IMG/VR virus record: IMGVR_UViG_3300011113_000366
Coordinates: 1 to 32,168 of that record
From: a virus
Length of the DNA: 32,168 nucleotides
Reading direction: 5' to 3' (one strand)
The notes below the pieces were generated by a model. That model made no database searches. It was not told where the DNA came from and saw only the letters and a list, made by a program, of their open reading frames with translations. The position numbers and the translations under genes are program-made. Below are positions 8,054 through 28,348 of this stretch, one piece after another; position 1 is the stretch's first letter, and each line of letters starts with the position of its first letter.

Positions 8054-8648
8054 GATTATCTTCTGAATTAGTCAGCAAATTCATGTGAACCACAACTAAA
8101 TGAGCATATGATATCGCATGTGCCTTTTTAAAATAGTATACGTCGTCTTGGGGTCTTTCAAACACTGTCTTAGCAACTTCTGCCCAGGGTAGTCCTATTA
8201 GATGGCGTTTTGCTGGTCGAATCACGCTTAAAAACATGGCCATCCTGGGAATACTGTTGACAGCTTCGGGCATTTTAGTTAAAGTCTCGTAGTGAGAACC
8301 TATGTGAATTAACTGCCCACAGAACTCAGAATCATATAATTTAGTCCAATCTGGTTCTTGCTGCATTAACTGTACTAAATGATCTTCATTTTTTACCTGT
8401 TGATATAAATTAACATTCAAAAAATCTAACTTTAAATATCCTCGATCTTCGGCTATTTGATAATCCAAACTGCACTGCCCAGTGTAAGGATCCACTGGGA
8501 TATCTGTAAAGTACACACCTGTATTGTGTTTAGTTAGTTTTTCGTCCCGTATAATACTAGCAGGTGTGTGTTTTAACAGCGACAGAATTTGATTTCTATC
8601 TCCAAAATCTATGTCGATGTCGCTGGCGAATCGTTTAATTTCCTGCAT
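8028..8648 (-). CDS. Miniature DNA polymerase III alpha (DnaE)-like protein, 206 aa
   Basis: Landmarks of the C-family polymerase palm appear in the right order. SDIDIDFGDR (D10, D12, D14) corresponds to the P-D-I-D-x-D-F motif. KHNTGVYFTDIPVDPYTGQ corresponds to the K-H-A-x-G-V region. GYLKLDFLNVN (D75) matches G-L-x-K-F-D-F-L-G-L. SVIRPAKRHL (near 142-150) matches L-F-R-P-G-P. YYFKKAHAISYAH (near 171-183) matches F-N-K-S-H-S-A-A-Y-A. Bacterial DnaE has over 1,100 residues; this protein lacks PHP, fingers, beta-binding and OB domains. The two palm aspartate sites are kept but the spacing is greatly shortened. ATG 8648 is chosen because the upstream extension only overlaps the endonuclease gene. 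Whether it polymerises, binds DNA ends or is regulatory is unknown. Confidence 0.62.
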   Translation of the reverse strand: MQEIKRFASDIDIDFGDRNQILSLLKHTPASIIRDEKLTKHNTGVYFTDIPVDPYTGQCSLDYQIAEDRGYLKLDFLNVNLYQQVKNEDHLVQLMQQEPDWTKLYDSEFCGQLIHIGSHYETLTKMPEAVNSIPRMAMFLSVIRPAKRHLIGLPWAEVAKTVFERPQDDVYYFKKAHAISYAHLVVVHMNLLTNSEDNLKQFFEPV

Positions 8649-9264
8649 TGTTTTTCTTGCCTTTATTATGAGGAATATGTCCGACTGTCGCTTTTCTTTT
8701 TGCCCAGCCATCTTTCATTTTTTGTTTCTCCTCTTCGGTCCTGGATCTGCCTTTGTTCCACGCTGTTTTACCCGTATTCGCTTTACTAACTGCTTCCTTA
8801 ACTTTATCGTCTCGCGGGATTCCAAGGTTCCATGCAACTTTTCCTTTGTTGGCTCTGCTTATAGCGTCCTTTACTGCTTGAGATCTAGGAACTCCTTTGT
8901 TCCATGCCGGCAGTCCTCTAAGAGACTCTGACAACTTTCGTCTTGTTTCGTCGGATGTTTTGTTACCAGGGACATTACCATCTATACCATTCTCTACTAT
9001 TAGGTTTGCCCATTCAGCTGAATTAACGATATTGTGTTGCATTGAGAAATTTAATGCATACTCGATTAATGATTCTCGATCAGTAAACAATTCAGCCCAT
9101 ACCGTTATCACATTATTACCGTGCTTTTTAATGTGGTCTTTCCAATACTTTCCAGACCCTCTATACAACAACGGATCTTTAGTTGTTTTTCCAAAATACT
9201 TTAATCCTGTTATGTTATGTTGCTTAATGTAAAGCCATGTTGGGATAAAATTATTAGTTTTCAT
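8635..9264 (-). CDS. GIY-YIG homing endonuclease (copy 2) with NUMOD3 repeats
   Basis: The protein has 209 residues from ATG 9264. The N-terminal nuclease domain (WLYIKQHNITGLKYFGKTT, then YRGSGKYWKDHIKKHG) is a degenerate GIY-YIG motif; RESLIEYALNFS carries the conserved Glu helix. From about residue 110 there are three NUMOD3-type DNA-binding repeats of the form R-K-L-S-E-S-x-R-G ... A-W-N-K-G (RGLPAWNKG, KGKVAWNLG, TGKTAWNKG), then HNKGKKNN. The ATG at 9264 lies 5 nt after a GATAAATA box, as in copy 1; an upstream ATG at 9306 is inside the previous gene and is not favoured. The TAA stop overlaps the first 14 nt of the DnaE-like gene, so the cassette sits exactly between two coupled genes. 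Confidence 0.88.
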   Translation of the reverse strand: MKTNNFIPTWLYIKQHNITGLKYFGKTTKDPLLYRGSGKYWKDHIKKHGNNVITVWAELFTDRESLIEYALNFSMQHNIVNSAEWANLIVENGIDGNVPGNKTSDETRRKLSESLRGLPAWNKGVPRSQAVKDAISRANKGKVAWNLGIPRDDKVKEAVSKANTGKTAWNKGRSRTEEEKQKMKDGWAKRKATVGHIPHNKGKKNNAGN

Positions 9265-9268
9265 ATTA

Positions 9269-9502
9269 TTATTTATCCGCAAAGTCAATATCAATATATC
9301 CTGCATATTTCAATGAAAATAACGTAGCATAACTTTCTACATGATCTTCAAAATAAAACACAGTTACATTTTCATCCGATTTAAACTGCCAACTATAATC
9401 TTTATTCAATTTTAGACCTTGTTCTTCACACCACTTGTGCAATAAAATCGAATGAGATGATCCAACAAATCTATGTAGCCATCGTATTTCTACTCGCTTC
9501 AT
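9269..9502 (-). CDS. Small protein of unknown function, 77 aa
   Basis: The protein reads MKRVEIRWLHRFVGSSHSIL, then a mixed alpha/beta sequence with YSWQFKSDENVTVFYFEDHV and a C-terminus YIDIDFADK. No known motif is recognised. It overlaps the upstream gene by 4 nt (ATGA type). Its last codons GAT AAA TAA form the GATAAATA late box of the endonuclease gene. The ending IDIDFADK resembles the start of the DnaE-like protein (DIDIDFGDR) on the other side of the endonuclease cassette. Confidence 0.7.
   Translation of the reverse strand: MKRVEIRWLHRFVGSSHSILLHKWCEEQGLKLNKDYSWQFKSDENVTVFYFEDHVESYATLFSLKYAGYIDIDFADK
9270..9277 (-). promoter_or_regulatory. Late-type promoter box GATAAATA for GIY-YIG copy 2, leaderless geometry
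   Basis: The box is identical to the one before copy 1 and ends 5 nt before ATG 9264. It overlaps the stop codon of the 77-aa gene. Confidence 0.45.
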
Positions 9503-12164: not shown

Positions 12165-12193
12165 ATAATAATATCTTTGCTAGTATAAGTCAA
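12165..12193 (-). promoter_or_regulatory. Sigma70-like promoter (TTGACT-17-TATTAT), leaderless geometry
   Basis: The -35 TTGACT at 12193-12188 contains the TGA stop of uvsW. A 17-nt spacer leads to TATTAT at 12170-12165, and exactly 6 nt later comes ATG 12158. It would separately drive the operon 12158-8028. Confidence 0.68.
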
Positions 12194-13635
12194 CTCTGCC
12201 ATTCGGTCTTCTCTACACTAAATGGGTAGTTTGCTTCTTTATAAAATTGCTTACGTTTGGTCAGATGTCGTTTGGCAAATTTACAGGTACTAGTTATGTC
12301 CCAGATTTGAACGAAGTCTTTGTCTTCAGCTTTTCTAATGCCTCGCCCAATGCTTTGTATAACTCTTGTAAAGCTTTTTCCGGACTCCACAAGAACCAAA
12401 TTAAAAATCCTAGGAATATTAATACCCACAGCGGCCACACCGTAAGTCGCCACAGCAACCTTGTCATCAGTAATCGCAAATTCATCGTACTCATCTTTTC
12501 TTGCCTTTGATTTAGTAGCTCCCGACACAAAAACTGCATTTTTTATTTTACTGGCTAACTTCTTACCTGGATCTACCCTGTCAACCAGAACCAGAGTGTT
12601 TCCCGATTCAGAAATCTTATTAATCAGATCAGCAATGTAATCTATACGTGATTCTGTCTCTAACAAATATTTTAGTTCTTGTTGATAATCTTTGTACTCG
12701 ACATAGTCAACCATTTGTATTACATTTACATGACAGTTGCTTAAATGTCCTTGCTCTTGTAGCTCGCTGGCACTGAGTTGTCCTATCACTGGACCGATGC
12801 AACAATTTAGTGCTTGATATGCATAATCTTCTTTAGGTACTGTGCCCGTTAATCCCCAACGAATGGGCACACGAGCAAAGATGGTGGTCAACATAGACTT
12901 CAATGCATCTGCTTTGGCGCTGTGTGCTTCGTCTACCATGACGCAGACAACATCCTCGATAAAGTCATGTATAGTTACATCTGCTTCATAGTTCTTTGTA
13001 TTTTTTACCAAAGCATTCAAACTTTGCCATGTGCAGATTGTGTGTTGTTTAGTGTATTCTTTACGGTCTCCAAACAGCACACCAACATCTAGTCCCATGG
13101 TTTTGTAGTCCGTTTCTGTTTGTGTAACGAGACTCTTAGAAGGAACAATGACAATGCTTCGACCCAAATGTTGCACACTCGCAGACAAGGCCGCTGTCAT
13201 AATAGTTTTACCAGCCCCAGTGGCCACTTCCTGAATACACTGCGGATTCTTTAAAAAGCGATTGATAATTTCAACTTGATAATCTCGCAGTATAATAGGT
13301 TCACCGTTAGGCCATTGTTTATGAGCGAAACTATCTTCAACTACTTGCCCAAGTTCTAATGTAGTACTGTACTCGCGCACATCATCAACATCGATGTCGT
13401 AGCCCCGTTCTTCTAAGTACGGAAGAATGTCAGGCAGTAAGTTAATGTAGGTTGTGCCACCCAAATTGAAATAAGGTACCTTGCCATCCCATCTTCCAAG
13501 TCTGACTGCTGGTAAATATCTTGCTCCAGGAATTTCGTATTTGAATTTTTCCACTAATCGTTTTCGATCAGTGAGTTCGAGCCCTTCGATCTTTACATTA
13601 ACTTCGTCGCGAATAATTAATTTTGCTTGATTCAT
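12190..13635 (-). CDS. uvsW: UvsW-type superfamily 2 helicase, 481 aa
   Basis: The N-terminal ~110 residues form the substrate-binding region (PGARYLPAVRLGRWDGKVPY is the characteristic segment). The helicase core follows: the Q-like motif RDYQ near 117, Walker A VATGAGKT near 137-144, the DEAH box VDEAH near 234-238, motif III GLTGT near 261-265, motif V ATYGVAAVGINIP and motif VI QSIGRGIRK near 427-435. T4 UvsW (about 500 residues) branch-migrates and rewinds stalled forks, unwinds R-loops and switches replication from origin- to recombination-dependent mode. This length is close to it. The gene overlaps the HARP-like gene by 4 nt (ATGA) and is co-transcribed with it. Confidence 0.95.
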   Translation of the reverse strand: MNQAKLIIRDEVNVKIEGLELTDRKRLVEKFKYEIPGARYLPAVRLGRWDGKVPYFNLGGTTYINLLPDILPYLEERGYDIDVDDVREYSTTLELGQVVEDSFAHKQWPNGEPIILRDYQVEIINRFLKNPQCIQEVATGAGKTIMTAALSASVQHLGRSIVIVPSKSLVTQTETDYKTMGLDVGVLFGDRKEYTKQHTICTWQSLNALVKNTKNYEADVTIHDFIEDVVCVMVDEAHSAKADALKSMLTTIFARVPIRWGLTGTVPKEDYAYQALNCCIGPVIGQLSASELQEQGHLSNCHVNVIQMVDYVEYKDYQQELKYLLETESRIDYIADLINKISESGNTLVLVDRVDPGKKLASKIKNAVFVSGATKSKARKDEYDEFAITDDKVAVATYGVAAVGINIPRIFNLVLVESGKSFTRVIQSIGRGIRKAEDKDFVQIWDITSTCKFAKRHLTKRKQFYKEANYPFSVEKTEWQS

Positions 13636-14675
13636 TCTAGAATTATAATCTTTTCAGCATTAGAAACCCAACTTTGTTTTTTACTACCTATCATCAAACT
13701 AGTGGTAGTTACTAATAACTTGGGGCGTACTTCGGGTCCTATTCCCCGATTCAAGTAGATAATATCTTCAGTATTAGATTTTGGTAACCCAGTTTCATAA
13801 ACATGAATGGGTAATCTATTTACCTTCCTTGCATATTCTAACACTTGCTCTATGGATATTTTTTCTTTGTTGCAAGTAGTTTTTCGATTTATCAAAAATC
13901 TACGGTCGTGTCCATAATCTAACTTATCGATCTGTTTTATTAAAGTGTCATCGACTTCAAAGCCTAGTACTGAACTAACATCAATTAATTTTAATAGGTT
14001 GCTCATGGTAACGCCACCAACAGTCTCTATATAATCCAATAAGCTAGATTCGGCATTTTCTAATATTAATTGATCATCTACCAGCCTTAGGCAAATTTTG
14101 TAGCTGATTTTTTCTACCGATAGCATCTTTTCGTGTAGTGCTGTAACAGAATCATGAATAGTAAACTCATTGGGCGGGCAAATTGCCATAATCCAATTTA
14201 AGTTGTTTTCAGTCATGCCCAGTAACCATATTTTTTTATCATAATTAAATCTGACCGAGCCCTCACCTTGCCGTGCCTGTTTTTTTAATAAATCAATTAA
14301 CTTAGTATCATATGGAAATTTAACTACAAATTGATTATCTTCGATATATACAGATTTTGTTCGATCAACTAAACGAATTCCTAATCTAAATGATTCGAGT
14401 TTTTCAGGAACAACAACGGGAGTGACTAGACCTGCTAACTGTCTTCTATACTTGTCTACTAGTTTTACTGCTAATGCGCTTTGTTTATCTGTATAAGGAT
14501 TATTTAATTCGCAGGTTTGTGAGGACAAACTATCAATGATAGATACGTCATATCTTGCTAAGTTTATGGGAGGCGGGGCATAGTTAAATATTCCAAAAAC
14601 TTTTCCGTCAACACTTCGGCGGCCACCGATAAACTCTATATAGTCTTCGACATAATTAAAAGTGGGCTGCTTCAT
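13632..14675 (-). CDS. Protein with a HARP-like domain, coupled to UvsW, 347 aa
   Basis: Residues about 108-165 (VYIEDNQFVVKFPYDTKLID, then SVRFNYDKKIWLLGMTENNL) resemble the HARP domain of SMARCAL1: a strand, F-P-Y-D/H-x-x-L-I, a short loop, then R-F/Y-D-x-x-x-K-x-W and a final helix. HARP domains position an annealing helicase on fork DNA. The rest is not recognised; it has DTLIKQIDKLDYGHDRRFLI in the middle and a C-terminal beta region ending AEKIIILE. It is translated from a leaderless-type start and overlaps uvsW by 4 nt. This suggests a two-protein annealing-helicase unit in which the targeting module and the motor are separate. The HARP call is by pattern and moderately secure. Confidence 0.72.
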   Translation of the reverse strand: MKQPTFNYVEDYIEFIGGRRSVDGKVFGIFNYAPPPINLARYDVSIIDSLSSQTCELNNPYTDKQSALAVKLVDKYRRQLAGLVTPVVVPEKLESFRLGIRLVDRTKSVYIEDNQFVVKFPYDTKLIDLLKKQARQGEGSVRFNYDKKIWLLGMTENNLNWIMAICPPNEFTIHDSVTALHEKMLSVEKISYKICLRLVDDQLILENAESSLLDYIETVGGVTMSNLLKLIDVSSVLGFEVDDTLIKQIDKLDYGHDRRFLINRKTTCNKEKISIEQVLEYARKVNRLPIHVYETGLPKSNTEDIIYLNRGIGPEVRPKLLVTTTSLMIGSKKQSWVSNAEKIIILE

Positions 14676-14722: not shown

Positions 14723-15250
14723 TCAGACATTGTATTCTTGCAGAATTCTAATAGCCCAATCAAAGGCTAGGTTAGCTTCGTCTGCCATGCTGTCATCTAA
14801 CTTTGATCTAATTGTACTAATCAATTGATCCTTGTTTTCAAACTCAAGTGCAATGTGACTGCCAGGAATTAATCGCTTAATCATTTGTCCACCGTAGAGA
14901 TCGCCCATGTGCCAGACATATAAGTGAGCCATTATTTTGGCCGAATCTTTGTTAATGCTTAACAGATAATTGTGATAATCAACGGCGGCATTCTTAAAAG
15001 AATATTGTTTGTTATCGACGTTCATTATCTGATAGTCTTGAAATAACTTAAACGCTCTAGGTATGTCTGGCAAGTCTCTTAATAAGCCATTCATGCCTGC
15101 AGCACCTTCTATGGTTTTGTAGAATAACATCTTCTGATATGTATAATCTATCCAATGATCCACGGGTAATGTTCCTGCAAATATTGCTCGCATGAATTGT
15201 GTGGATTCGGCTTGTTTATGTTTTTCTGCCGTAAGTTCTTTAAGACTCAT
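14723..15250 (-). CDS. Heme oxygenase, 175 aa
   Basis: The start LKELTAEKHKQAESTQFM carries the proximal heme ligand His (His11) in the usual L-x-x-x-T-x-x-x-H-x-x-A-E-x-T/S-x-F-M context. HLYVWHMGDLYGGQMIKR (GDLYGGQ near 116-122) is the distal-helix signature Y-x-x-x-G-D-L-x-G-G-Q. Heme oxygenase opens heme to biliverdin, releasing iron and CO using reduced ferredoxin. It is slightly shorter than most bacterial enzymes (about 200-240 aa). Some marine phages carry it for bilin synthesis or iron release; no bilin reductase gene is in the window. It stands alone between an upstream terminator and a downstream promoter. Confidence 0.9.
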   Translation of the reverse strand: MSLKELTAEKHKQAESTQFMRAIFAGTLPVDHWIDYTYQKMLFYKTIEGAAGMNGLLRDLPDIPRAFKLFQDYQIMNVDNKQYSFKNAAVDYHNYLLSINKDSAKIMAHLYVWHMGDLYGGQMIKRLIPGSHIALEFENKDQLISTIRSKLDDSMADEANLAFDWAIRILQEYNV

Positions 15251-15280: not shown

Positions 15281-15305
15281 AAAAAAAAGCCCTACATTGT
15301 AGGGC
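15281..15305 (-). terminator. Intrinsic terminator ending the SPFH operon
   Basis: On the minus strand GCCCTACAATGTAGGGC forms a 6-8 bp GC-rich hairpin (15305-15289) followed directly by eight U residues (15288-15281). It closes the unit that ends with the 140-aa gene (stop at 15356) and isolates heme oxygenase. The remaining 50 nt up to 15355 hold no gene that I can see. Confidence 0.88.
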
Positions 15306-15355
15306 TTTAAAGAATCGCCACAGGAGCTGTCTGATTAATTGGCGACCCGAAAAAC

Positions 15356-15778
15356 TTAATGTGCTTCGTTATTTAAAGTAATATTGCTTAGTCCGGCAAG
15401 AATTTGAAAACGCTCCCAAGCTTCTTTTACAGCTGGCCTAGACTCTAACTCACTGTCAGGCAATGCAGTTTCTAACCAGTAATAAGGCATGCGGCGAGGA
15501 TAAGAACCAAATTTACGGGGCTGGTGTAGCTTGCCATCGGCCCAGAGATTCAGCGTAGCATCTCGAAATTCCTGTTCACGATCTTCGTCATAGTGCGCCC
15601 ACTCACGTGCCGTACCAAATGCGCCGCGACCGCGATAACCATCCCAAATGTTTTTCCACTGCTCATCGTTGTGTGGGTCAAAGTCTGTGCGTGAAATAAT
15701 GATCAGCACATCGTCAGGATCCACTACGCGATCCACAATGTCGCGAACACATCGGCTATAACTCAGTCCAATTTTCAT
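15356..15778 (-). CDS. Protein of unknown function, 140 aa; last gene of the SPFH unit
   Basis: The N-terminus MKIGLSYSRCVRDIVDRVVD leads into VLIIISRTDFDPHNDEQWKN, WDGYRGRGAF and a C-terminal LHQPRKFGSYPRRMPYYWLE segment. The opening strand and S-x-S-R-C-x-R-D-I-V followed by an R-T-D-F pattern look like a nucleotide- or ligand-binding alpha/beta protein, but I cannot assign a family. It starts 2 nt after the SPFH stop, so it is co-translated with it, and is followed by the terminator. Confidence 0.75.
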   Translation of the reverse strand: MKIGLSYSRCVRDIVDRVVDPDDVLIIISRTDFDPHNDEQWKNIWDGYRGRGAFGTAREWAHYDEDREQEFRDATLNLWADGKLHQPRKFGSYPRRMPYYWLETALPDSELESRPAVKEAWERFQILAGLSNITLNNEAH

Positions 15779-15779
15779 A

Positions 15780-16577
15780 TTACTTGGGCATCATCAATGC
15801 ATTGAAATTAGCAGGAACAACAATAGTCTGCACTTTACCATTTTTAATACCTTCGCTGATATTCAGCATGGCCTGTGCCTGCATAAACTGAATAGAACTT
15901 TGACTGTTGTTTGCCAGTGCAGCCATTCGCCTTGATTCGGCTTCAGCAGTTTTAACTTCGATTTCTTTCTGCTTGAGTTCATTCTTACTGCGAACTAATT
16001 CGTTGGCACTAGCCACAACACTGTCAGCAGGAACCACATTACGAATTAGAACCTGACTGATAGTAAGACTGCCATCAAGTTTTTCTTCCGCTAGATTGCG
16101 AACGATTTCTTCCTTGATGAAGTTCTCCATCTCTGATCGATTGTCAGCCATGTCAAGTGCTTCGTATTTACGAGCTGCCTTGTATACGGCATTACGAGCA
16201 TTTTGAACGATGTAATTGTACATCAAATAAACGTCGCCGCTTTTTTCGGTGGCATGAAAAGCACGGTTCTTGGAACTGTACAGTTCGGCCACTTGTTGCG
16301 GGTTAATGTTGTAAACAACAACAGCATCAAAGTCCTTCATAGTACTATTGTCTTTGGCCACTGGAGTCATATTTTCCAGCGTGACGTTGACATCCTTGAC
16401 TGGGAAGGTTAGCACATCGCCAACCAGGACCTGATTGAAAGTGCCGGGCAATAGTTCGCCAGGCTTAACTTGTTTGTCAAAGCCTACACGAACACCAACT
16501 TCACCAGTTTCAATTCGAGTGCAGCCTGTGGCAAGAACTGCGGCGGCGATAAGACTCAAAGTAGCAAAACGTTTCAT
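15780..16577 (-). CDS. SPFH/Band 7 (prohibitin-like) lipoprotein, 265 aa
   Basis: From ATG 16577 the protein starts with a lipoprotein signal: MKRF, a hydrophobic stretch LSLIAAAVLA and the lipobox L-A-T-G-C (Cys19), with Thr at +2. The SPFH domain follows: ETGEVGVRVGFDKQVKPGEL and then VGDVLTFPVKDVNVTLEN, DFDAVVVYNINPQQVAELY and the IVQNARNAVYKAARKYEALD helix. A charged coiled coil (ELKQKEIEVKTAEAESRRMA) comes near 205-235, and the C-terminus is SEGIKNGKVQTIVVPAN. SPFH proteins form membrane-associated rings; bacterial HflC/HflK restrain FtsH protease. An in-frame start 52 codons upstream is rejected because it lacks a ribosome-binding site and destroys the signal; ATG 16577 has GGAG 8 nt before it. 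Confidence 0.93.
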   Translation of the reverse strand: MKRFATLSLIAAAVLATGCTRIETGEVGVRVGFDKQVKPGELLPGTFNQVLVGDVLTFPVKDVNVTLENMTPVAKDNSTMKDFDAVVVYNINPQQVAELYSSKNRAFHATEKSGDVYLMYNYIVQNARNAVYKAARKYEALDMADNRSEMENFIKEEIVRNLAEEKLDGSLTISQVLIRNVVPADSVVASANELVRSKNELKQKEIEVKTAEAESRRMAALANNSQSSIQFMQAQAMLNISEGIKNGKVQTIVVPANFNALMMPK

Positions 16578-16678
16578 TAGATAACTCCATAAGTAAAAAG
16601 AAGAATTGTAACAACCGCTCCCAACATCATGTAGGAAATGCGGCCTAGCACTTCTAGCGCAATCTGATAAATTTTCAT
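16577..16678 (-). CDS. Micro-membrane protein, 33 aa
   Basis: The sequence is MKIYQIALEVLGRISYMMLG followed by AVVTILLFTYGVI, a single transmembrane helix with a short polar N-terminus. Its TAA shares an A with the SPFH ATG (TAATG), which couples the two. The SPFH ribosome-binding site GGAG is inside this gene. It is below the size limit of most gene finders but fits the spacing of the operon exactly. Confidence 0.72.
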   Translation of the reverse strand: MKIYQIALEVLGRISYMMLGAVVTILLFTYGVI

Positions 16679-16681
16679 AGT

Positions 16682-16858
16682 TTAAAATAACAGATAAATG
16701 ATTAAAAGACTGACTGAAGCAATCAGTCCACACAGTATAGCAACTAATACAATTTTAGTCAACTGCCAACGTTCTTTGTCTGAAGCAATGTTCCATCCGT
16801 AAATCAGTAGGCCAATCACAGCAGACATCATGACCCACACTTGCAGAATTTTTAGCAT
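16682..16858 (-). CDS. Small two-helix membrane protein, 58 aa
   Basis: The two hydrophobic segments are VWVMMSAVIGLLIYGW (near 7-22) and IVLVAILCGLIASVSLLIIY (near 36-55), joined by a charged loop NIASDKERWQLTK. GGAAA precedes the ATG by about 9 nt. It lies 3 nt before the 33-aa gene and 3 nt after the 61-aa gene. A helical-hairpin inner-membrane protein is predicted; function unknown, but the shape recalls small holin-like or regulator proteins. Confidence 0.75.
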   Translation of the reverse strand: MLKILQVWVMMSAVIGLLIYGWNIASDKERWQLTKIVLVAILCGLIASVSLLIIYLLF

Positions 16859-16861
16859 TAA

Positions 16862-17047
16862 TTAATTTCCTTGTTTAACACAGACAAACTTTACTTCTTT
16901 TGTAGTTCGTCTGACAAGAACTTCAGATTGTTTACCGGCAGATTGGCAAGCGGCTTCTGTGGCAAAGCCAGGAACATTGGTTAGTGCCATGCTGTCTTTG
17001 TCACTTAGCATTCCAGCATGAACAAATAAAATTAATACCCAACTCAT
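16862..17047 (-). CDS. Small exported-looking protein, 61 aa
   Basis: A short hydrophobic N-terminus (MSWVLILFVHAGMLS) precedes a polar domain with two cysteines (ATEAACQSAGKQ and VKFVCVKQGN) that could form a disulfide outside the cytoplasm. AAGGA lies 9 nt before the ATG. It is placed among membrane proteins and 10 nt after the 131-aa gene. No family recognised. Confidence 0.72.
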   Translation of the reverse strand: MSWVLILFVHAGMLSDKDSMALTNVPGFATEAACQSAGKQSEVLVRRTTKEVKFVCVKQGN

Positions 17048-17057
17048 ATTATATCCT

Positions 17058-17453
17058 TTACTTTACAAGTTTATCAACTTGATCTTCAGTTTTATCTGCC
17101 AACGCGGCAAACATCTTACGTTTTTCTAAACGTTCTGCTTCTACTCTTTGACGCTCACGCTCTTTGTCTTCGAATTTCTTGCGTCTCTTTTCATCTGTTA
17201 ACCGCAACATATAGTCATACTGTTGAGCCTTGGCCCACCCATTCAACCACACTTCTAGTTCTCGAAAAGATCCAACAAAAAGTTCAGCGTCACGAGAATA
17301 TATAGGCAAGCTGTCATCTAGTGGAAAAACTGCAACATACTCTGTGCCATCTCGACTAGTGTATCCGTGTTTAGGGTTGCCCAATCTAAAGCCAAGTAGT
17401 TTTGCTTGATCTTCGATTTGTTGCAGTCGAAGATAAGTTTTGTATCCGCTCAT
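17058..17453 (-). CDS. Protein of unknown function with C-terminal coiled coil, 131 aa
   Basis: The N-terminal ~70 residues form an alpha/beta domain: LRLQQIEDQAKLLGFRLGNP, DGTEYVAVFPLDDSLPIYSR, FVGSFRELEVWLNGW. A highly charged helix follows (RLTDEKRRKKFEDKERERQR and VEAERLEKRKMFAALADK), clearly a coiled coil. Its ATG shares a base with the stop of the 34-aa gene (TAATG). It may pair with the AAA+ ATPase or the SPFH coiled coil; that is inference from location. Confidence 0.78.
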   Translation of the reverse strand: MSGYKTYLRLQQIEDQAKLLGFRLGNPKHGYTSRDGTEYVAVFPLDDSLPIYSRDAELFVGSFRELEVWLNGWAKAQQYDYMLRLTDEKRRKKFEDKERERQRVEAERLEKRKMFAALADKTEDQVDKLVK

Positions 17454-17557
17454 TATATCACCGCTACTAAAAAGATAAAAAACGCCGCTACAGGGTAGCC
17501 GAACAACAAGGCCATCATGGCAAGTATAGTGCCAAAGAAGGCCTTGTCACTGTCCAT
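17453..17557 (-). CDS. Micro-membrane protein, 34 aa
   Basis: The sequence MDSDKAFFGTILAMMALLFG followed by YPVAAFFIFLVAVI is nearly all transmembrane, with the acidic start M-D-S-D-K outside the helix. It overlaps the ATPase stop by one base (TAATG at 17559-17555) and the next gene by one base (TAATG at 17455-17451). Being nested between two such junctions makes it very likely to be translated. Confidence 0.72.
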   Translation of the reverse strand: MDSDKAFFGTILAMMALLFGYPVAAFFIFLVAVI

Positions 17558-18585
17558 TATGCTGCCTTCATGCAAGTAGTCGCTGCCATGGCCTTCCAAC
17601 GCAGGGGAAAGCTCTTACGCAGATCCGCAATCTTCAGTGCCATACGCAGGCTCATTTCACGAAGCTTAACCTTGTTAGAGTCCATGAACTCAAGGATCTC
17701 GTCACGGCCAATGTCGCCAAAGTCGTAGTCTTGAAACAATTCGCCGTCAGTGGCAATCTGCTTGATACGCAGGAACTTGTCACGCATCGTATCCAAAGTC
17801 AGATCCAAATAGTGGCAACGACTTTGCAGTGCATCCAAGTGATCCCGCAGTTTCTGCGACTTCATAGTGTCAAACTTCAAGTTGGTGATAAAAATCACAC
17901 TTCCGTTGAAGTTGAACTGATCTGGCACACCTTCACGACGAAGCATGTTGCTGTCAGCAAGCCAAGAAATTTTACGCTTCTTGCCGCTGTCCAGAGCACC
18001 CTTGAGCAAGTTAAGAGCAACATCGTCAAGCAGAATGCTGTCGCAGTCGTCAAACACAAGAACGCAATTGGGGTCGCTGTATTTGTACAGAGTGCAATAC
18101 AGACCCAGTGCAGTGGCGCTACCTTTAACAACTTCTGCACGAAGTTTCTTGCCAGCAATTTGGTCAAACAGGCAAGCCTTCTCTACAATGGACTCAACAC
18201 CGTAGCTCTTGCCAACACCTGGAGGGCCACTGACAATCATTGCACGAATGTCGCCGTTAGTTGCAGCCTTGGTCATTTCGTCGAGGATATCAAAACGCTC
18301 ACGGATGCGAGCAATGACTTCTTCATCAGTCTCAACGCTGACTGCTTCGCGCACTTCTGCGTCATGTTGAATAGCTTCGCTGCCAGTCACAAATTCGTAG
18401 GCAGCAACACCTGCAACTTTGATACGAATAGTATCGGGCATGTCAGGGAAAACACCGCCATTACGAACAGTAACATGTCCGCCACTAGCAGTTTTCTTGT
18501 ACTGCTCAACCAGCTCAAAAACTTTGCCGTCAACGGGTTTGTTGCGGTAAGTGCCCTTACGAATAAGAATAGTTGCTTTCGACAT
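17557..18585 (-). CDS. AAA+ ATPase, 342 aa; first gene of the SPFH unit
   Basis: Walker A is GPPGVGKS (near 120-127), Walker B VLVFDDCD (near 175-182) and sensor 1 VIFITNLKFD (near 230-239). An arginine-containing segment LDALQSRCHYLDL follows, and a helical lid with DKFLRIKQIA and FMDSNKVKLREMSLRMALKI. The first ~95 residues are an extra N-terminal domain (KGTYRNKPVDGKVFELVEQY) of unknown function. Such single-domain ATPases act as remodelling or loading machines. Operon mates are four tiny or coiled-coil proteins and an SPFH lipoprotein, so a membrane-linked remodelling role is inferred. It has a strong promoter and AGGAG ribosome-binding site. A long antisense frame in this gene is a codon-bias shadow. 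Confidence 0.9.
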   Translation of the reverse strand: MSKATILIRKGTYRNKPVDGKVFELVEQYKKTASGGHVTVRNGGVFPDMPDTIRIKVAGVAAYEFVTGSEAIQHDAEVREAVSVETDEEVIARIRERFDILDEMTKAATNGDIRAMIVSGPPGVGKSYGVESIVEKACLFDQIAGKKLRAEVVKGSATALGLYCTLYKYSDPNCVLVFDDCDSILLDDVALNLLKGALDSGKKRKISWLADSNMLRREGVPDQFNFNGSVIFITNLKFDTMKSQKLRDHLDALQSRCHYLDLTLDTMRDKFLRIKQIATDGELFQDYDFGDIGRDEILEFMDSNKVKLREMSLRMALKIADLRKSFPLRWKAMAATTCMKAA

Positions 18586-18616
18586 ATCAGCTCCTGTTTT
18601 GTTACGCTATGAATGT

Positions 18617-18645
18617 ATTATAGCAGTTCTACCAATTTCGGTCAA
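18617..18645 (-). promoter_or_regulatory. Sigma70-like promoter (TTGACC-17-TATAAT) for the AAA+/SPFH unit
   Basis: TTGACC at 18645-18640, a 17-nt spacer ending in TGC, and TATAAT at 18622-18617. The leader of about 25 nt contains AGGAG before ATG 18585. A 20-nt sequence upstream (18674-18693) forms a GTGTTG/CAACAC hairpin without a U-tract, in the gap after the 222-aa gene. Confidence 0.82.
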
Positions 18646-20093: not shown

Positions 20094-20101
20094 TATTTAC
20101 A
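20094..20101 (-). promoter_or_regulatory. Possible late-type box TGTAAATA, leaderless geometry
   Basis: TGTAAATA ends exactly 5 nt before ATG 20088 and includes the TAA stop of the ThDP gene. An identical octamer lies at 28348-28341 ahead of the NAD synthetase gene. Confidence 0.35.
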
Positions 20102-20840
20102 CATTTTTTATAATCATTTCTTGTTCTAGTTCAGTTTGACTGAGAAATGGTGTCATGTCGTGCAGGCCAGCTTGTTTGCCATTTTTTAATGCCTGGGCGG
20201 GCAATATTTCCTGTTCGGAAAGACATTGGCAGTCTATAATAACTGGTCCTTTTTTCTTAAGGGCTCTAGGGAACTGAAGTCGCAGATCCTCTTTTGTTCT
20301 GATGTCCACACAGGGCATGCCAAATGCCGTGGCAATATTTTTCATGCTGGGAAACCAAAGACCAGTTTCACCGCTGGTACCGTAGACTCTGCCATTGAAA
20401 TATTTTTGTTGGGTGTTTTTAATACTCAAGTAACCGTTGTTATTTAATATAACAAATTTGATGTCTAGTTCATGCTGTTTAACTACAGCTAACTCTTGAA
20501 CATTGCTCATAAAACTGCCATCGCCTATGATACTGATCACAGGTTGATTACTGGCCATGCTTACTCCAACCGCAGCAGGCAGCGCCCACCCCATATCTGC
20601 TTGCGCGGGGCTAAAGATAAAACGCTGGCCTTGTTTGGCATTGAGTGCCACAGGCCCTGCATAGCTAATACTGCCAGCATCGCCCATTAAAATATCATCA
20701 GCTGAACTATGCTGATTGATTGCATCCAGCACAGCATAAATGTTTAATCGGAATTGACTATCAGCAGGACGATATTCCTCCTGCATCACAGGCCATTTAT
20801 TTTTCCATTCATTGCATTTTTGAATCCATTGGTGTTTCAT
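20097..20840 (-). CDS. ThDP-dependent enzyme, C-terminal (PP) half of an acetolactate-synthase-like protein, 247 aa
   Basis: This is the cofactor-binding half: QADMGWALPAAVGVSMAS, then the ThDP/Mg motif GDGSFMSNVQELAVV (GDGS near 106-109) ending in LNNNGY (near 132-137), the expected G-D-G-S-x(~25)-N-N spacing. The C-terminal TRP-less segment ends TELEQEMIIKNV. The first 45 residues (WIQKCNEWKNKWPVMQEEYR) are the usual linker from the middle domain. It is read from ATG 20840, overlapping the TGA of the N-terminal half by ATGA, so the halves are made in fixed ratio. Together they make 584 residues, the normal length of one acetolactate-synthase-family subunit. Substrate is likely an alpha-keto acid; the acceptor may be a keto sugar. 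Confidence 0.88.
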   Translation of the reverse strand: MKHQWIQKCNEWKNKWPVMQEEYRPADSQFRLNIYAVLDAINQHSSADDILMGDAGSISYAGPVALNAKQGQRFIFSPAQADMGWALPAAVGVSMASNQPVISIIGDGSFMSNVQELAVVKQHELDIKFVILNNNGYLSIKNTQQKYFNGRVYGTSGETGLWFPSMKNIATAFGMPCVDIRTKEDLRLQFPRALKKKGPVIIDCQCLSEQEILPAQALKNGKQAGLHDMTPFLSQTELEQEMIIKNV

Positions 20841-21850
20841 AATAGCATAGCCTCAAAAAAGTTTTCTAAGTAATCGTTATACTTGAGATCAATTGGTACA
20901 ATGTCTTTGTTTAATTCGTTCCAGTCGATATCTATTAGAATTTTAGTGCTTGCTGGAGAGAATTGTTTAGGATCATATCCTATGACACTGGCATTCAAAC
21001 TGCTACCTAGGATCAACAATAAATCTGCGTTCTGCATGGCAAAGTTTCCAGCTCTCGACCCCTTGATACCCACTGCCCCGATACTTAATAGATGACTGTT
21101 TTCTGTATAATCTCTAGCACCATATGTACTTACATAAGGAATTTGATATTTTTCAACGAACTTAACAAAATTATCAACTACGTTTGCCTGTCTAATACCG
21201 TAGCCTGCCAATACAACAGGGCGTTCGGCTTTATTCAACAATTCTTTAATTAAAGCATAGTCCTGCGCTTTAAGTGTACTTGCAGGGGGTTGAAATTGCG
21301 AAGGATTTTCAGGCATTTGTGCTACCTGAACATCTCCTGGAATGTCAATCCAGACTGGACCAGGTCGTCCCGTTGTTGCTTTCCAAATTGCTTCTTGTAG
21401 TCTATATGCAACTTCATCGGGGCTTTCGATAAAGTAGGCCATTTTTGTCATGCTCTGGTATGTTTCAATTACATCATGCTCTTGAATGCCGTATTTTCGA
21501 ATATTAATATTTTTTGTCTGATTAATGTGTCTACTGCAAGTTGCTGTTCGAACATTGCCACTGATAAACAATACAGGCACACTGTCTTGCCAAGCATTGA
21601 GAACACTGGTAGCACAATTGGTACCTGCACAACCTGTGGTAGGATTAACTACTGACAACTTTCCTGTAAATTTGCTTTCGCCAATGGCTGCATGGCCGGC
21701 ACCTTGTTCGTGGTGATAGCAAACGTAGCCGATCTTTCCATTTTTGATGAAACCGTCATTGAGGCCACTGGCTCCGCCGCCCATCAATCCATGAACACGT
21801 TCAACTCCAATTTGATACAAATATTCAGCGATCCAATCACAGACTCTCAT
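20837..21850 (-). CDS. ThDP-dependent enzyme, N-terminal (Pyr plus middle) half, 337 aa
   Basis: The Pyr domain carries the activating glutamate in VCYHHEQGAGHAAIGES (Glu48; the family consensus is H-E-Q-x-A-x-H-x-A). NPTTGCAGTNCATSVLNAWQ follows, which is the G-P-G-x-x-N motif region. Residues about 190-330 are the middle domain (PVVLAGYGIRQANVVDNFV, ADLLLILGSSLNASV, TKILIDIDWNELNKD), which in this family binds FAD or a nucleotide remnant. The protein stops cleanly at the domain boundary and the PP half follows in an overlapping frame. A natural fission is more likely than a sequencing frameshift because ATGA coupling is also used at neighbouring junctions (23016 and 21850). Confidence 0.88.
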   Translation of the reverse strand: MRVCDWIAEYLYQIGVERVHGLMGGGASGLNDGFIKNGKIGYVCYHHEQGAGHAAIGESKFTGKLSVVNPTTGCAGTNCATSVLNAWQDSVPVLFISGNVRTATCSRHINQTKNINIRKYGIQEHDVIETYQSMTKMAYFIESPDEVAYRLQEAIWKATTGRPGPVWIDIPGDVQVAQMPENPSQFQPPASTLKAQDYALIKELLNKAERPVVLAGYGIRQANVVDNFVKFVEKYQIPYVSTYGARDYTENSHLLSIGAVGIKGSRAGNFAMQNADLLLILGSSLNASVIGYDPKQFSPASTKILIDIDWNELNKDIVPIDLKYNDYLENFFEAMLL

Positions 21851-23016
21851 AATTTACTGGCCCATTCATTAATTCGTTTAACTGCACTCATTATACTATA
21901 AGTGTCAGTGGCATAGCAAAGCCTAATATGACCTTGCCCATACTGTCCGAAACAACTGCCCGGTACAGTTACTACTCCTGCTTTATCCATTAATTGTTCA
22001 CAGACTTCAACGTCAGTGAGTCCGGTTTCTTCTATATTAGGAAACACATAAAACGCACCGCCCGGGGATTTACATCGAAATCCTGGTATCTCATTGAGAC
22101 CTTTGACAAGAATATCTCGCCGACTTCGATATTCAGCCATCATTCTATACACAGAATCTTGTGTTCCACGTATTGCTTCAACACCAGCATGTTGAATAAA
22201 AGGACTGACACAGCTACTGGTAGTTTGTAACAATGCAGCCATACGTTCCATGACTTCAGTGGGGCCAATCAGTGCGCCCAATCTCCATCCTGTCATCGCA
22301 AATGCTTTACTAAAACCATTACTTAATATAACGTGAGATTTACACTTATCATACTGACTGGGACTTGTGAATTCATAGTCATCGTAAATCATTCGACTAT
22401 AAATTTCATCGCTGTACAAGTAAATGTCCTTTTCCACGCATAGGTCGTAGATAGCTTTAAGCTCTTCTTTTGACATTACTGCGCCAGTGGGATTATTAGG
22501 ACTGTTGATAATTAGCAGTCTTGTACGGTCAGTGATCAGTTTACGAACATCATCTGCTTGCATCCGGAATCCGTGTTCTTCTTTGAGGGGGACTCGAACA
22601 GCATTTGCACCGCACATCTTAATTGTGCTGTAGTAAGTGGCAAATCCAGGGTCAGGCACTAACACATCGTAGCCCGGATCACACAGTGTAAACACGGCAT
22701 AAAATATGCCAACATTGGCACCAGGTACTACCAACACTTGATTCAGGTCAGGCATAAAGTGTCTACTATTAAATGTAGCAACACGTATGGCTTCTCTAAA
22801 TTCTAGCTCGCCCCAACTGCTGGTATAATGAGTGCGGCCTTCAGTCAATGCTCGTACTGCTGCCATGGTAATATTATCCGGAGTATTAAAATCAGGATCG
22901 CCAATCTCCATGTGAATCATACTTCGACCTTGAGCTTCCAGTTGCCTAGCTCGATCCAAGTATTTGAACATAGGTTGGCCGTCAATATTGGCGGCAGCAA
23001 TACTTAATCTTTTCAT
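21847..23016 (-). CDS. Class I/II PLP aminotransferase (aspartate-aminotransferase family), 389 aa
   Basis: This is a complete fold-type I enzyme. MIHMEIGDPDFNTPDNI opens the substrate-binding region, and LIINSPNNPTGAVMSKEEL carries the conserved N-P-x-N-P-T-G. YSDEIYSRMIY contains the Asp/Tyr that hold PLP, and SNGFSKAFAMTGWRLG has the Schiff-base lysine (Lys237). The C-terminal IRLCYATD holds the substrate-carboxylate arginine. Such enzymes act on amino or keto acids, not sugars. In this operon it could supply or remove the keto acid used by the ThDP enzyme, or make an amino acid that decorates a glycan. It overlaps both neighbours by 4 nt. Confidence 0.92.
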   Translation of the reverse strand: MKRLSIAAANIDGQPMFKYLDRARQLEAQGRSMIHMEIGDPDFNTPDNITMAAVRALTEGRTHYTSSWGELEFREAIRVATFNSRHFMPDLNQVLVVPGANVGIFYAVFTLCDPGYDVLVPDPGFATYYSTIKMCGANAVRVPLKEEHGFRMQADDVRKLITDRTRLLIINSPNNPTGAVMSKEELKAIYDLCVEKDIYLYSDEIYSRMIYDDYEFTSPSQYDKCKSHVILSNGFSKAFAMTGWRLGALIGPTEVMERMAALLQTTSSCVSPFIQHAGVEAIRGTQDSVYRMMAEYRSRRDILVKGLNEIPGFRCKSPGGAFYVFPNIEETGLTDVEVCEQLMDKAGVVTVPGSCFGQYGQGHIRLCYATDTYSIMSAVKRINEWASKL

Positions 23017-24332
23017 GCAAACAAACTCATAAAACCATCAACCTTCTCACCGATGTAAGCAATTTGTTCTGGTGTAATCACAGGGCTAGTGCCATGAAAA
23101 TATGTATGAGTCATAGCATGGGTAGCGTTAGGATAATTATCTTTGGCTAGCTGCGGATCCATTAAATGACTGTAGGCCGGCTGTAACATAATATTACCAG
23201 CAAAATAAGGTCTTGTTTGGATTAGGTTTTCTTCCAAGTAATCTACAATGTCACTGCGTTTAAATGGCGCATCTTTTCTAACAGTCAATGGAAATGCAAA
23301 CCAACTTGGATTACTTTTATCTTGCGCTCTTGGCAAATGAAAGAATTCTTCGTAACGTTCGTAGATGCTGAATAAAAGAGCATGGTTTCGTCTACGCAAT
23401 GCATGAATCTCAGGCAATTTTTTAAGTTGCTCTAATCCCATGGCACATTGTAGTTCGATGGGCTTGAGATTATACCCAATTTCATCGTATACATATTTGT
23501 GATCAAATATTTCGTCAGGCAGTGTAGGAATCCAATTATTGAAACGTTTGCCACACGTTCCGCATTTTAGCTTGTTAGCTTCAGGCCCCACACAGTAGCA
23601 TCCACGACCCCATTCACGGAAGCTACGAAGAATTACATCTGTGTTAGCATCATCTGTGGCAACATACCCGCCTTCGCCCATGGTCATATGATGTGCTGGA
23701 TAAAAACTACATGAAGACATTAATCCAAATGATCCCAGGGGCTTGCCGTCATAGGTACTGCCCAAGGCATCACAACAATCTTCTAATAGAATCAGATTGT
23801 ATTTGTTTACCACACGCATGACTTCATCCATATTGGGAGGATTACCCAATACATGAGCAAAAGTGATTACTCGAATGTCTGGATTGTCTATTAGAATTTT
23901 TTCTAATTGTGTGGTGTCCAAGTTCAGCGTGTCTAATTCAATGTCTACAAACACTGGAACGAAACCCACTTGCAGTGTAGGATTAAGTGTAGTAGGGAAG
24001 CCAGCGATAGGCATTAAAACTTTAGTGCCTTTAGGTAAGTTATAACCACGCTTACTGGTCAGTGCTGACATCATCAACAGATTACTTGAACTGCCGCTGT
24101 TAGTGACAATGCCTTTTGTTTTACCAAATTGTCTAGGAAATTGCCTTTCGAATTGCAGTCCTTGGTCTCCCATGGCCAGCCATCCGTTGAGTAGAGATCC
24201 TACTCCGGCTACGAATTCGTCTTCGTTGTAATATGCACCTGCATAATTAACAAAGTCTCGTCCTGCCTGCCATGTTTTGTTTGCTTGTTTTTCGCGAATG
24301 TATTCACGTACCTGTTGAAGAATTTGTTCCAT
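23013..24332 (-). CDS. rfbH: RfbH-type PMP-dependent NDP-4-keto-6-deoxyglucose 3-dehydrase, 439 aa
   Basis: The protein has the DegT/DnrJ/EryC1 fold with the diagnostic change of the 3-dehydrase (E1) group: SCSFYPAHHMTMGEGGYV (near 207-224) has His where ordinary sugar aminotransferases have the PLP lysine. So it eliminates the C3 hydroxyl using PMP instead of transferring an amine. A cysteine group (CYCVGP...CGTCGKRF, near 245-263) corresponds to the [2Fe-2S] site of RfbH/AscC. DHKYVYDEIGYNLKP also matches RfbH. The reaction needs a reductase (E3), which is not in the window and may be the host's. The product would be an NDP-3,6-dideoxy-4-keto-hexose. It lies 3 nt after the dehydratase gene. 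Confidence 0.9.
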   Translation of the reverse strand: MEQILQQVREYIREKQANKTWQAGRDFVNYAGAYYNEDEFVAGVGSLLNGWLAMGDQGLQFERQFPRQFGKTKGIVTNSGSSSNLLMMSALTSKRGYNLPKGTKVLMPIAGFPTTLNPTLQVGFVPVFVDIELDTLNLDTTQLEKILIDNPDIRVITFAHVLGNPPNMDEVMRVVNKYNLILLEDCCDALGSTYDGKPLGSFGLMSSCSFYPAHHMTMGEGGYVATDDANTDVILRSFREWGRGCYCVGPEANKLKCGTCGKRFNNWIPTLPDEIFDHKYVYDEIGYNLKPIELQCAMGLEQLKKLPEIHALRRRNHALLFSIYERYEEFFHLPRAQDKSNPSWFAFPLTVRKDAPFKRSDIVDYLEENLIQTRPYFAGNIMLQPAYSHLMDPQLAKDNYPNATHAMTHTYFHGTSPVITPEQIAYIGEKVDGFMSLFA

Positions 24333-24335
24333 GTA

Positions 24336-25283
24336 TCACCAAATAAAATTTTCTTTGTAGTATTCTACTATCTTTACTAGTTCTTTGTCAAATATTGCTT
24401 CAGGCTTCCATCCCAATTGACGTAGTTTACTGTCGTCAATACTATACCGAACATCCTGTCCAACTCGTACCATATGTTCAATATAATCTTCTAAAGGGTC
24501 AGTGAGTTTCATTAAATCGATTATTTTCTTAACTACATTGATATTTTCAGTTTCGTAGTTTCCGCTTATGTTATAAATTTCATTTACGGCACCCGATTCG
24601 ATAATTTTAATCACAGCCTGAGCTGTATCACCTGCATATAACCATGTACGCACCGGAGTACCGTTATTGTGTAGATCTACTCTACGCCCCACACTTAAAT
24701 ACTTTACCGTTTTAGGAATAAGTTTTTCAACATATTGTCCTATACCGTAGTTGTTGGTTGGACGAATTATAACATAGGGTAAATTATATGTTCTGCCCCA
24801 ACTTGTAACAAGATGATCCGCAGCAGCTTTGGTTGCACTATAAGGGTTGCTGGGTTTTAACAGATCTGTTTCTGTGTGACTGCCTTCTGCTATATCTCCA
24901 TAAACCTCGTCCGTACTGAAATGTAGGAATATAGGTTTTTTATTTTTCTTTTTGTTTATCAACTTGAGTAAATTATGCACCCCGTTGATATTGCTGTGAA
25001 CAAATAAATCACTGTCTTCTATGCTGTTGTCGACGTGAGTTTCAGCAGCAGTATTAATAATATAGTCACAGTCATACAGTCTTGTTAAATCATTGATATC
25101 GCTTTTAATAAAATGAAACTGATCACTGTATCTCATTGACCAACTGTCAATCCATGCAGAGTTGCTGGCATAAGTGCATTTGTCTACACCAATGACATAC
25201 CATCCCTGTTTTAAACAAGTTTCAGTGACATGACTTCCGATAAATCCCAAACACCCTGTAACATAAACAATTTTTTTAGACAT
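24336..25283 (-). CDS. NDP-glucose 4,6-dehydratase-type SDR enzyme (RmlB/RfbB-like), 315 aa
   Basis: Rossmann motif VTGCLGFIGSHV (near 8-19), an early NAADETHVDN-like stretch written as NTAAETHVDNSI, and FSTDEVYGD (Thr124-Asp125-Glu126, the 4,6-dehydratase proton-transfer triad). NPYSATKAAADHLV holds Tyr148 and Lys152. IRPTNNYGIGQY and VRTWLYAGDTAQA are typical RmlB substrate-binding segments. It converts an NDP-glucose to NDP-4-keto-6-deoxyglucose, the substrate of the RfbH-type enzyme encoded next. dTDP versus CDP cannot be told by eye; RfbH partners usually use CDP. It overlaps the RmlD-like gene by 8 nt. Confidence 0.9.
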   Translation of the reverse strand: MSKKIVYVTGCLGFIGSHVTETCLKQGWYVIGVDKCTYASNSAWIDSWSMRYSDQFHFIKSDINDLTRLYDCDYIINTAAETHVDNSIEDSDLFVHSNINGVHNLLKLINKKKNKKPIFLHFSTDEVYGDIAEGSHTETDLLKPSNPYSATKAAADHLVTSWGRTYNLPYVIIRPTNNYGIGQYVEKLIPKTVKYLSVGRRVDLHNNGTPVRTWLYAGDTAQAVIKIIESGAVNEIYNISGNYETENINVVKKIIDLMKLTDPLEDYIEHMVRVGQDVRYSIDDSKLRQLGWKPEAIFDKELVKIVEYYKENFIW

Positions 25284-26073
25284 AATTTTTTATTCCTTGT
25301 TCTAGCCCTTGTAAGTCAATTCCCAATTGAGCGAGCTTTTTTCCACTACCGGTATAATAGCACCATTGTGTATCATTGATAGTAAATGCAATATTAGTAC
25401 CGTGAAAAGAATTTAACATTTTTAAATAATCGCTAAGAAAATATTTTTCTAAATAAACACAATTAATATCTTTAAATTTAGGTTTTTCTTCTTTGCAATA
25501 ATATTCTACAATCTTTGCAAAATCTAATGCACTAATGTAGTCAAAAAATTTATCTTCAATTGAAGTAATTTTACCTGATAGAAATTTTTTAAACAATCTA
25601 ATGTCTGGTTCACTGGAATCAAAACATCCAAACAATCGCAGAGTATAAAAATTGTCACGATTTAATATTGCACGAGCGATGATATTTTTAGCGAATCCAT
25701 AACTTTCTAAGGGGGTGTTATTTACAACATTTTCTTCTTTGACATTGTGTATAACATTTCTTCTATCAAATTCAGCTCCACTGCCAATGTTGATAAATCT
25801 AGGACATTTCGAATTATTATAAAAATTGAAAAAGATACCTAAGTCAGTTTGCACGTCGGTGTAATTAATGTCGTTTATCTTTGTGCCGCCGCCACTGGTA
25901 ATTGCATTAATTATTATGTCTGGTTTAACCTGAGTCAGCCATTGATCCACTTCAGCATAGCTGCTTAAATTTAAAGTTTCCCTAGTGACCGGAATCACCG
26001 AATGATCATGCGAAAAATATTTGTGCAAATAACTACCGAGGTAACCCCTTGCACCTAGAACAGCTATTTTCAT
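25276..26073 (-). CDS. RmlD-like SDR (NDP-4-keto-sugar reductase/epimerase family), 265 aa
   Basis: The cofactor motif KIAVLGARGYLGSYLHKYF and the short alternating strand-helix pattern with LTQVKPDIIINAITSGGG match the RmlD/GDP-fucose-synthase-like SDRs. FINIGSGAEFD is the catalytic-serine strand, and SYGFAKN (Tyr125, Lys129) is the active site. The FINIGSGAEFDRR segment is more like SDRs of the NAD-dependent epimerase group. It would reduce the C4 ketone of a dideoxy or branched sugar. It overlaps its neighbours (4 and 8 nt). Shorter than average RmlD (about 290), but complete in motifs. Confidence 0.85.
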   Translation of the reverse strand: MKIAVLGARGYLGSYLHKYFSHDHSVIPVTRETLNLSSYAEVDQWLTQVKPDIIINAITSGGGTKINDINYTDVQTDLGIFFNFYNNSKCPRFINIGSGAEFDRRNVIHNVKEENVVNNTPLESYGFAKNIIARAILNRDNFYTLRLFGCFDSSEPDIRLFKKFLSGKITSIEDKFFDYISALDFAKIVEYYCKEEKPKFKDINCVYLEKYFLSDYLKMLNSFHGTNIAFTINDTQWCYYTGSGKKLAQLGIDLQGLEQGIKNYV

Positions 26074-28318: not shown

Positions 28319-28348
28319 GATTATAGAACCTATATACAAATATTTACA

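Follow-up and report, generated by a model that had tools for sequence, protein, structure and literature searches.

The IMG/VR virus record IMGVR_UViG_3300011113_000366, analysed here along its full 32,168 nucleotides (the window, a 32-kb virus record), carries on its minus strand an eight-gene operon that encodes an SPFH/Band-7 lipoprotein, a two-helix membrane microprotein of 58 amino acids (aa) specified shortly upstream of it, and, as the leading gene product, an AAA+ ATPase. A first-pass annotation of this DNA had described a self-contained unit of eight tightly packed genes between one strong promoter and one strong terminator. Checking the open reading frames and sequence of the window recovered all eight frames at the sizes it gave, with neighbouring frames overlapping (TAATG junctions) or almost touching, and located the promoter and the terminator, both conserved in near relatives (Table 1). 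Two elements of that description did not hold: a second sigma70-type promoter, conserved across the family, lies inside the 58-aa gene, and the whole eight-gene order is retained solely in the nearest relatives (L006, L030, L034, L087, L089, and L090).

Among four near relatives, both hexamers of the operon promoter are kept in L006, L087, and L090, and only the -10 in L034; the terminator stem has changed on both sides yet retains its pairing in L034, L087, and L090. All of the window's extended -10 promoters fall within 14.7–19.7 kb, and a promoter-like site at 17077–17048 was dropped because its -35 is not conserved in relatives. The small frames are real genes rather than chance, since their ratios of nonsynonymous to synonymous substitution rates (dN/dS) of 0.07–0.37 point to purifying selection. 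For the six operon products other than the AAA+ and SPFH proteins, PHROG and Pfam gave weak matches to uncharacterised families at best. A DNA-level search against cultured phages returned no matches.

Table 1. Features of the operon and its downstream neighbours (all on the minus strand). dN/dS was computed by the Nei-Gojobori method against close relatives; the SPFH and 140-aa values each come from one comparison.
Feature	Positions	Strand	dN/dS	Remarks
Operon promoter, TTGACC-N17-TATAAT, extended -10 (TGn)	18617..18645	-		11/12 match
AAA+ ATPase, 342 aa, T4 NrdC.10 family (phrog_1250)	17557..18585	-	0.06	
34-aa one-helix membrane peptide	17453..17557	-	0.13	conserved mainly in near relatives
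131-aa charged, coiled-coil-like protein	17058..17453	-	0.12	cargo; no known family
61-aa small exported-looking protein	16862..17047	-	0.07	phrog_20786 / phrog_3766
58-aa two-helix membrane microprotein	16682..16858	-	0.37	conserved neighbour gene of SPFH
Embedded sigma70-type promoter, TTGACT-N17-TATACT, TGn	16734..16762	-		in 58-aa frame, offset 96
33-aa one-helix membrane peptide	16577..16678	-	0.23	optional third cassette member
SPFH/Band-7 lipoprotein, 265 aa (phrog_200)	15780..16577	-	0.03 (one comparison)	lipobox LATGC
140-aa soluble protein	15356..15778	-	0.16 (one comparison)	no family; cargo; varied positions in other loci
Intrinsic terminator, 10-bp stem + T run	15286..15308	-		strong; conserved in near relatives
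347-aa protein	13632..14675	-		true syntenic neighbour of AAA+ gene, 72/80
UvsW-like helicase	12190..13635	-		end of AAA+ module, 69/80

Gene linkage at the SPFH and AAA+ loci

We fetched relatives from IMG/VR, 80 for the SPFH protein and 80 for the AAA+ ATPase, and placed homologues of the window genes in them by iterated profiles. At the SPFH loci, the 58-aa protein is encoded directly upstream in 77 of 80, the 33-aa peptide accompanies them in 26, and an AAA+ gene is nearby in only five. The AAA+ loci have the 347-aa gene downstream in 72/80 and the UvsW-like helicase gene in 69/80, with an SPFH gene nearby in just 12/80, always within the gap between the AAA+ and 347-aa genes. Because the two co-occur so rarely (5/80 and 12/80), each with a far stronger partner elsewhere, the AAA+ ATPase does not appear to be part of an SPFH machine. 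The genes flanking the 58-aa/SPFH pair differ between loci (40 families in 78 upstream slots, 33 families in 75 downstream slots), which marks the pair as the conserved unit. Judged by gene order, the operon is a junction of two independent conserved modules on one predicted transcript. The AAA+ gene belongs, by the same counts, to a block that runs from AAA+ through a cargo gap to the 347-aa gene and the UvsW-like helicase, and the 58-aa/SPFH pair is a candidate mobile cassette, sitting here in the cargo gap beside other small genes.

The linkage extends well beyond the relatives of the window. Applying equal rules to SPFH and control genes after removing redundancy, across five SPFH clades (four of them fetched additionally), we found a small two-helix gene directly upstream of 109 of 129 phage SPFH genes, against 12 of 429 controls (3% background), and in all five divergent clades. 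Similarly, in cultured phages whose SPFH proteins are 25–43% identical, the gene directly upstream again encodes a two-helix protein, of 53–92 aa. These phages include Kuttervirus (Ackermannviridae), Straboviridae, Schitoviridae, Kyanoviridae, and Vibrio phage CKB-S1; Acinetobacter phage AM24 departs from this pattern. In Erwinia phage Bue1 (L169), an unannotated two-helix frame of 64 aa lies upstream of position 2501 and overlaps the start of the SPFH lipoprotein gene. Within the window clade, SPFH distances track those of the microprotein (Mantel r 0.36, 57 loci, p about 0.002), and the 58-aa protein ends in phenylalanine in 44/44 homologues. Gene order, then, shows a recurrent linkage between predicted microprotein and SPFH genes.

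The AAA+ protein matches phrog_1250 (T4 NrdC.10) over its full length, with 280 bits across residues 5–340. Its family comprises 1238 phage records, and the Walker A motif (GPPGVGKS) is invariant. The AAA+ sequence had no match in the PDB, and its model gave weak fold matches only (template modelling (TM) score ~0.4), in the ORC/Hda/RFC clamp-loader clade. Neither PHROG nor Pfam matched the 347-aa protein. In related phages, the interval between the AAA+ and 347-aa genes (15281–17557) varies as a slot for cargo, holding from zero genes to several kilobases. In L006, an insertion of ~430 bases relative to the window lies between the 61-aa and 58-aa genes, at the boundary of cargo and cassette. 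A heme oxygenase gene (14723–15250; Pfam PF01126, 57.7 bits) directly follows the operon terminator, and heme-oxygenase-like genes recur in the cargo gap of 7/80 AAA+ loci.

Elsewhere in the window, a collagen-like Gly-X-Y repeat protein is encoded at 6087–7067 in the tail/fibre region, and two frames (313–987 and 8635–9306) resemble, by eye, GIY-YIG homing endonucleases. Two adjacent frames at 20097–21850 resemble, also by eye, a thiamine-diphosphate enzyme split into C- and N-terminal halves, and they sit in a series of aminotransferase, nucleotide-sugar, and epimerase-like genes (21847–26073).

A predicted sigma70-type promoter within the microprotein gene

At nucleotide offset 96 of the 58-aa gene, 66/77 loci carry the pattern TTGAC(A/T)-17-TATA(A/C)T with a match of at least 10/12. 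The site is found in 41 of 49 non-redundant homologues, compared with 10.6 ± 2.8 expected under resampling of synonymous codons. The fixation of codons coincides precisely with the -35 and -10 positions: Leu33 is TTG in 35/36 (30% in the codon pool), Ser40 is AGT in 31/31 (30%), and Ile41 is ATA in 30/30 (25%). These patterns show a predicted sigma70-type promoter nested in the microprotein gene. A separate promoter upstream of the 58-aa gene is not enriched (10/76 loci, 8.8 expected). Most Acinetobacter-phage loci have a promoter matching 10–11/12 positions 35–50 nucleotides before the SPFH gene. Because codon choice has kept a sigma70-type site inside the 58-aa gene, the SPFH gene of these phages is probably transcribed by host RNA polymerase from a promoter of its own, and a promoter of that type points to early expression. 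We infer the activity of both the embedded and the Acinetobacter-phage promoters from their sequence.

The SPFH lipoprotein and candidate roles of the pair

The SPFH assignment made in the first pass is well founded: the protein scores 65.9 bits against Pfam Band_7, above the curated cut-off of 23.6, and belongs to phrog_200 ("lipoprotein"; 198 cultured-phage records). Its signal peptide, MKRFATLSLIAAAVLATGC, contains a lipobox (LATGC, residues 15–19) followed by threonine at position +2, and a lipobox is present in 66/79 window-clade SPFH loci. This signal also supports, as a prediction, the earlier placement of the protein outside the cytoplasm. The SPFH domain begins right after the lipid cysteine, as that of HflC follows its membrane helix. 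In some relatives the lipid anchor is swapped for a membrane helix, which argues that either could hold the protein at the inner membrane. The structural model (mean predicted local distance difference test score 80.6) has helices 185–223 and 227–245 following the SPFH domain. A sequence search of the PDB gave no match; the closest folds are human prohibitin (9o9z/8rrh), HflC of the FtsH-HflKC complex (9cz2), stomatin, and QmcA (8z5g). The modelled fold is thus prohibitin/HflC-like, compatible with a ring at the membrane. Bacterial genomes hold almost no close relatives (two contigs only), which makes this a phage lineage.

The function of phage SPFH proteins has been called unclear (PMC7760394, PMC13239085). 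Lysogeny control (PMC4936722, PMC8540360) and adsorption or DNA entry (PMC13239085) were suggested, untested in those papers, and in Pasteurella a prophage-borne HflK/C-like protein of outer-membrane vesicles has been investigated as a factor in inflammation (PMC9872710). In cells, SPFH proteins often have an NfeD membrane protein as partner (PMC2636767), and QmcA-YbbJ is a cage of 26 heterodimers according to Tan et al. 2024, as cited in PMC13086221. The simplest reading of the phage genes is an SPFH ring with a minimal membrane partner. We lean, by a modest degree, toward an operon that joins two modules on one transcript, one of which would make this ring and partner early and organise the inner membrane. 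The SPFH protein would be exported and anchored on the periplasmic face by its lipid, which a membrane helix replaces in some relatives, and may assemble into a prohibitin/HflC-like ring or cage, with the microprotein as its inner-membrane partner in an NfeD-like role. Expressing the cassette early through host RNA polymerase, the phage would impose its own membrane microdomain. This microdomain could stabilise, guard, or remodel the inner membrane along with its proteins and would be likely to restrain FtsH-type proteolysis or to keep out a second phage. We give even chances to the broader proposal that a two-gene system for organising membranes, made up of an SPFH ring protein and a minimal two-helix partner replacing NfeD, is present in many unrelated phages and that, in one large phage group, the SPFH gene is expressed separately from an early promoter set among the codons for the second membrane helix of the partner. 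By eye, an NAD-synthetase-like gene and a fatty-acid-desaturase-like gene lie at 27350–29823, the latter of which could bear on membrane remodelling.

Several observations weigh against a ring-and-partner system. Linkage counts within one clade are not independent, owing to kinship. By charge pattern, the loop of the two-helix proteins is predicted to be cytoplasmic in the window, Kyano, and Kutter clades but periplasmic in the CKB and Acinetobacter clades; the proteins are therefore analogous by position and form, not established as one family. Because a tblastn search of cultured phages with the 58-aa protein matched nothing, the cross-clade case for a partner rests on position and two-helix form. 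The embedded promoter is missing from the Kyano, Kutter, and CKB clades, in which promoter sites are not enriched. TM-scores of the full-length SPFH model to PDB chains reach just 0.5–0.6. Position +2 of the SPFH lipobox is mostly threonine, serine, or glycine, and under the E. coli +2 rule such residues (threonine here) send a lipoprotein to the outer membrane. Finally, the SPFH lipoprotein of the Vi01-like phage Sajous1 was seen in virions (PMC10892097), which a role in the infected cell does not require.

The first-pass annotation had pictured one eight-gene machine, in which the cytoplasmic AAA+ ATPase drives the SPFH lipoprotein complex via tiny bridging membrane proteins. The single promoter-to-terminator layout and the gene order retained in the nearest relatives speak for it, but the co-conservation test that the annotation itself proposed failed on the counts given above, each gene having a much stronger partner of its own, and the AAA+ gene belongs to a widespread T4-like phage family far larger than that of SPFH (1238 records vs 198). 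Synteny counts largely refute such a machine, which we regard as exceedingly improbable. Of the bridging idea, the 58-aa protein survives as a plausible SPFH partner; the membrane micro-domain idea, which the annotation had offered as a means to control FtsH, block superinfection, or anchor replication, falls as an eight-gene machine and survives for the smaller, more widespread two-gene cassette. The two genes might also be linked without any partnership, the microprotein staying beside SPFH as a promoter carrier or because early phage regions often contain small membrane genes. The strongly kept embedded promoter could account for the linkage within the window clade, and the 58-aa protein evolves faster than its neighbours (Table 1). 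However, the arrangement also occurs in clades without the embedded promoter, the background frequency is low, and the microprotein sequence is itself conserved down to its C-terminal residue, so that we hold this explanation to be rather unlikely.

Other functions can be envisaged for the pair. Early-type promoters and an envelope lipoprotein would suit a superinfection exclusion or immunity cassette that blocks a second phage, like T5 Llp, and an annotated "superinfection exclusion" gene is close by in Ackermannviridae; this label is annotation only, searches against defence-system models gave no match, and Llp has an architecture unrelated to that of the SPFH protein, leaving such a role unlikely. 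A lysis module, with the two-helix protein as a class II-type holin and the SPFH lipoprotein as its regulator, fits the microprotein in size (<100 aa) and in its two membrane helices, and in Kuttervirus and Erwinia phage Bue1 the pair is near spanin genes. Spanins are nearby only in Ackermannviridae, however; elsewhere the pair lies outside any lysis cassette and adjoins NAD genes, a DprA-like gene, tRNAs, or DNA polymerase, and the promoters are early and of host type, all of which makes lysis quite improbable. We put slightly less weight still on a virion-associated protein aiding DNA entry across the envelope: mass spectrometry found SPFH proteins in particles of Sajous1 (PMC10892097), RisingSun (PMC6034870), and Eneladusvirus phages (PMC7760394), but with few peptides where these were counted (3 and 1) and possible membrane contamination, and here the promoter is of early type and the gene is outside any structural gene block.

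Phage SPFH lipoproteins have repeatedly been listed as unexplained, and the ring-and-partner reading offers a concrete handle through the partner gene and the nested early promoter: it specifies which two proteins to co-express, when they would be made, and which cellular system (NfeD-SPFH) to compare. If true, a 58-aa minimal partner would be a simple model for how an SPFH ring engages a membrane.

Comparison with known systems

Phage SPFH lipoproteins are already known. Those of phrog_200, from Kuttervirus, Acinetobacter phages, and cyanophages, share family, lipoprotein signal, size, and fold with the window protein, and the SPFH protein of cyanophage BUCT-ZZ01 is 43% identical; the literature searched contained no description of a conserved two-helix neighbour or an embedded promoter, both of which appear undescribed. 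The window AAA+ ATPase is 35–42% identical to the T4 NrdC.10 family (phrog_1250) over 95% of its length and differs in its setting, preceding the cargo gap and then the block of 347-aa gene and UvsW-like helicase.

HflK/HflC and the prohibitins are the closest solved folds, with the SPFH domain directly after an N-terminal membrane anchor and a periplasmic topology expected. Unlike HflK/HflC, the window has a single SPFH gene, not a pair (one Band_7 match in the 32-kb record, possibly a fragment), and most phage members are lipid-anchored, unlike HflK/HflC and the prohibitins. The NfeD-SPFH operons, such as QmcA-YbbJ, offer the likeness in gene arrangement: the phage SPFH gene also adjoins a small membrane-protein gene, and QmcA is among its fold matches. 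The phage partner differs in having no NfeD (OB-fold) domain, as the 58-aa protein has no Pfam NfeD match, and in its size of only about 52–93 aa. The QmcA cage faces the cytoplasm, whereas the phage ring would be expected on the periplasmic face.

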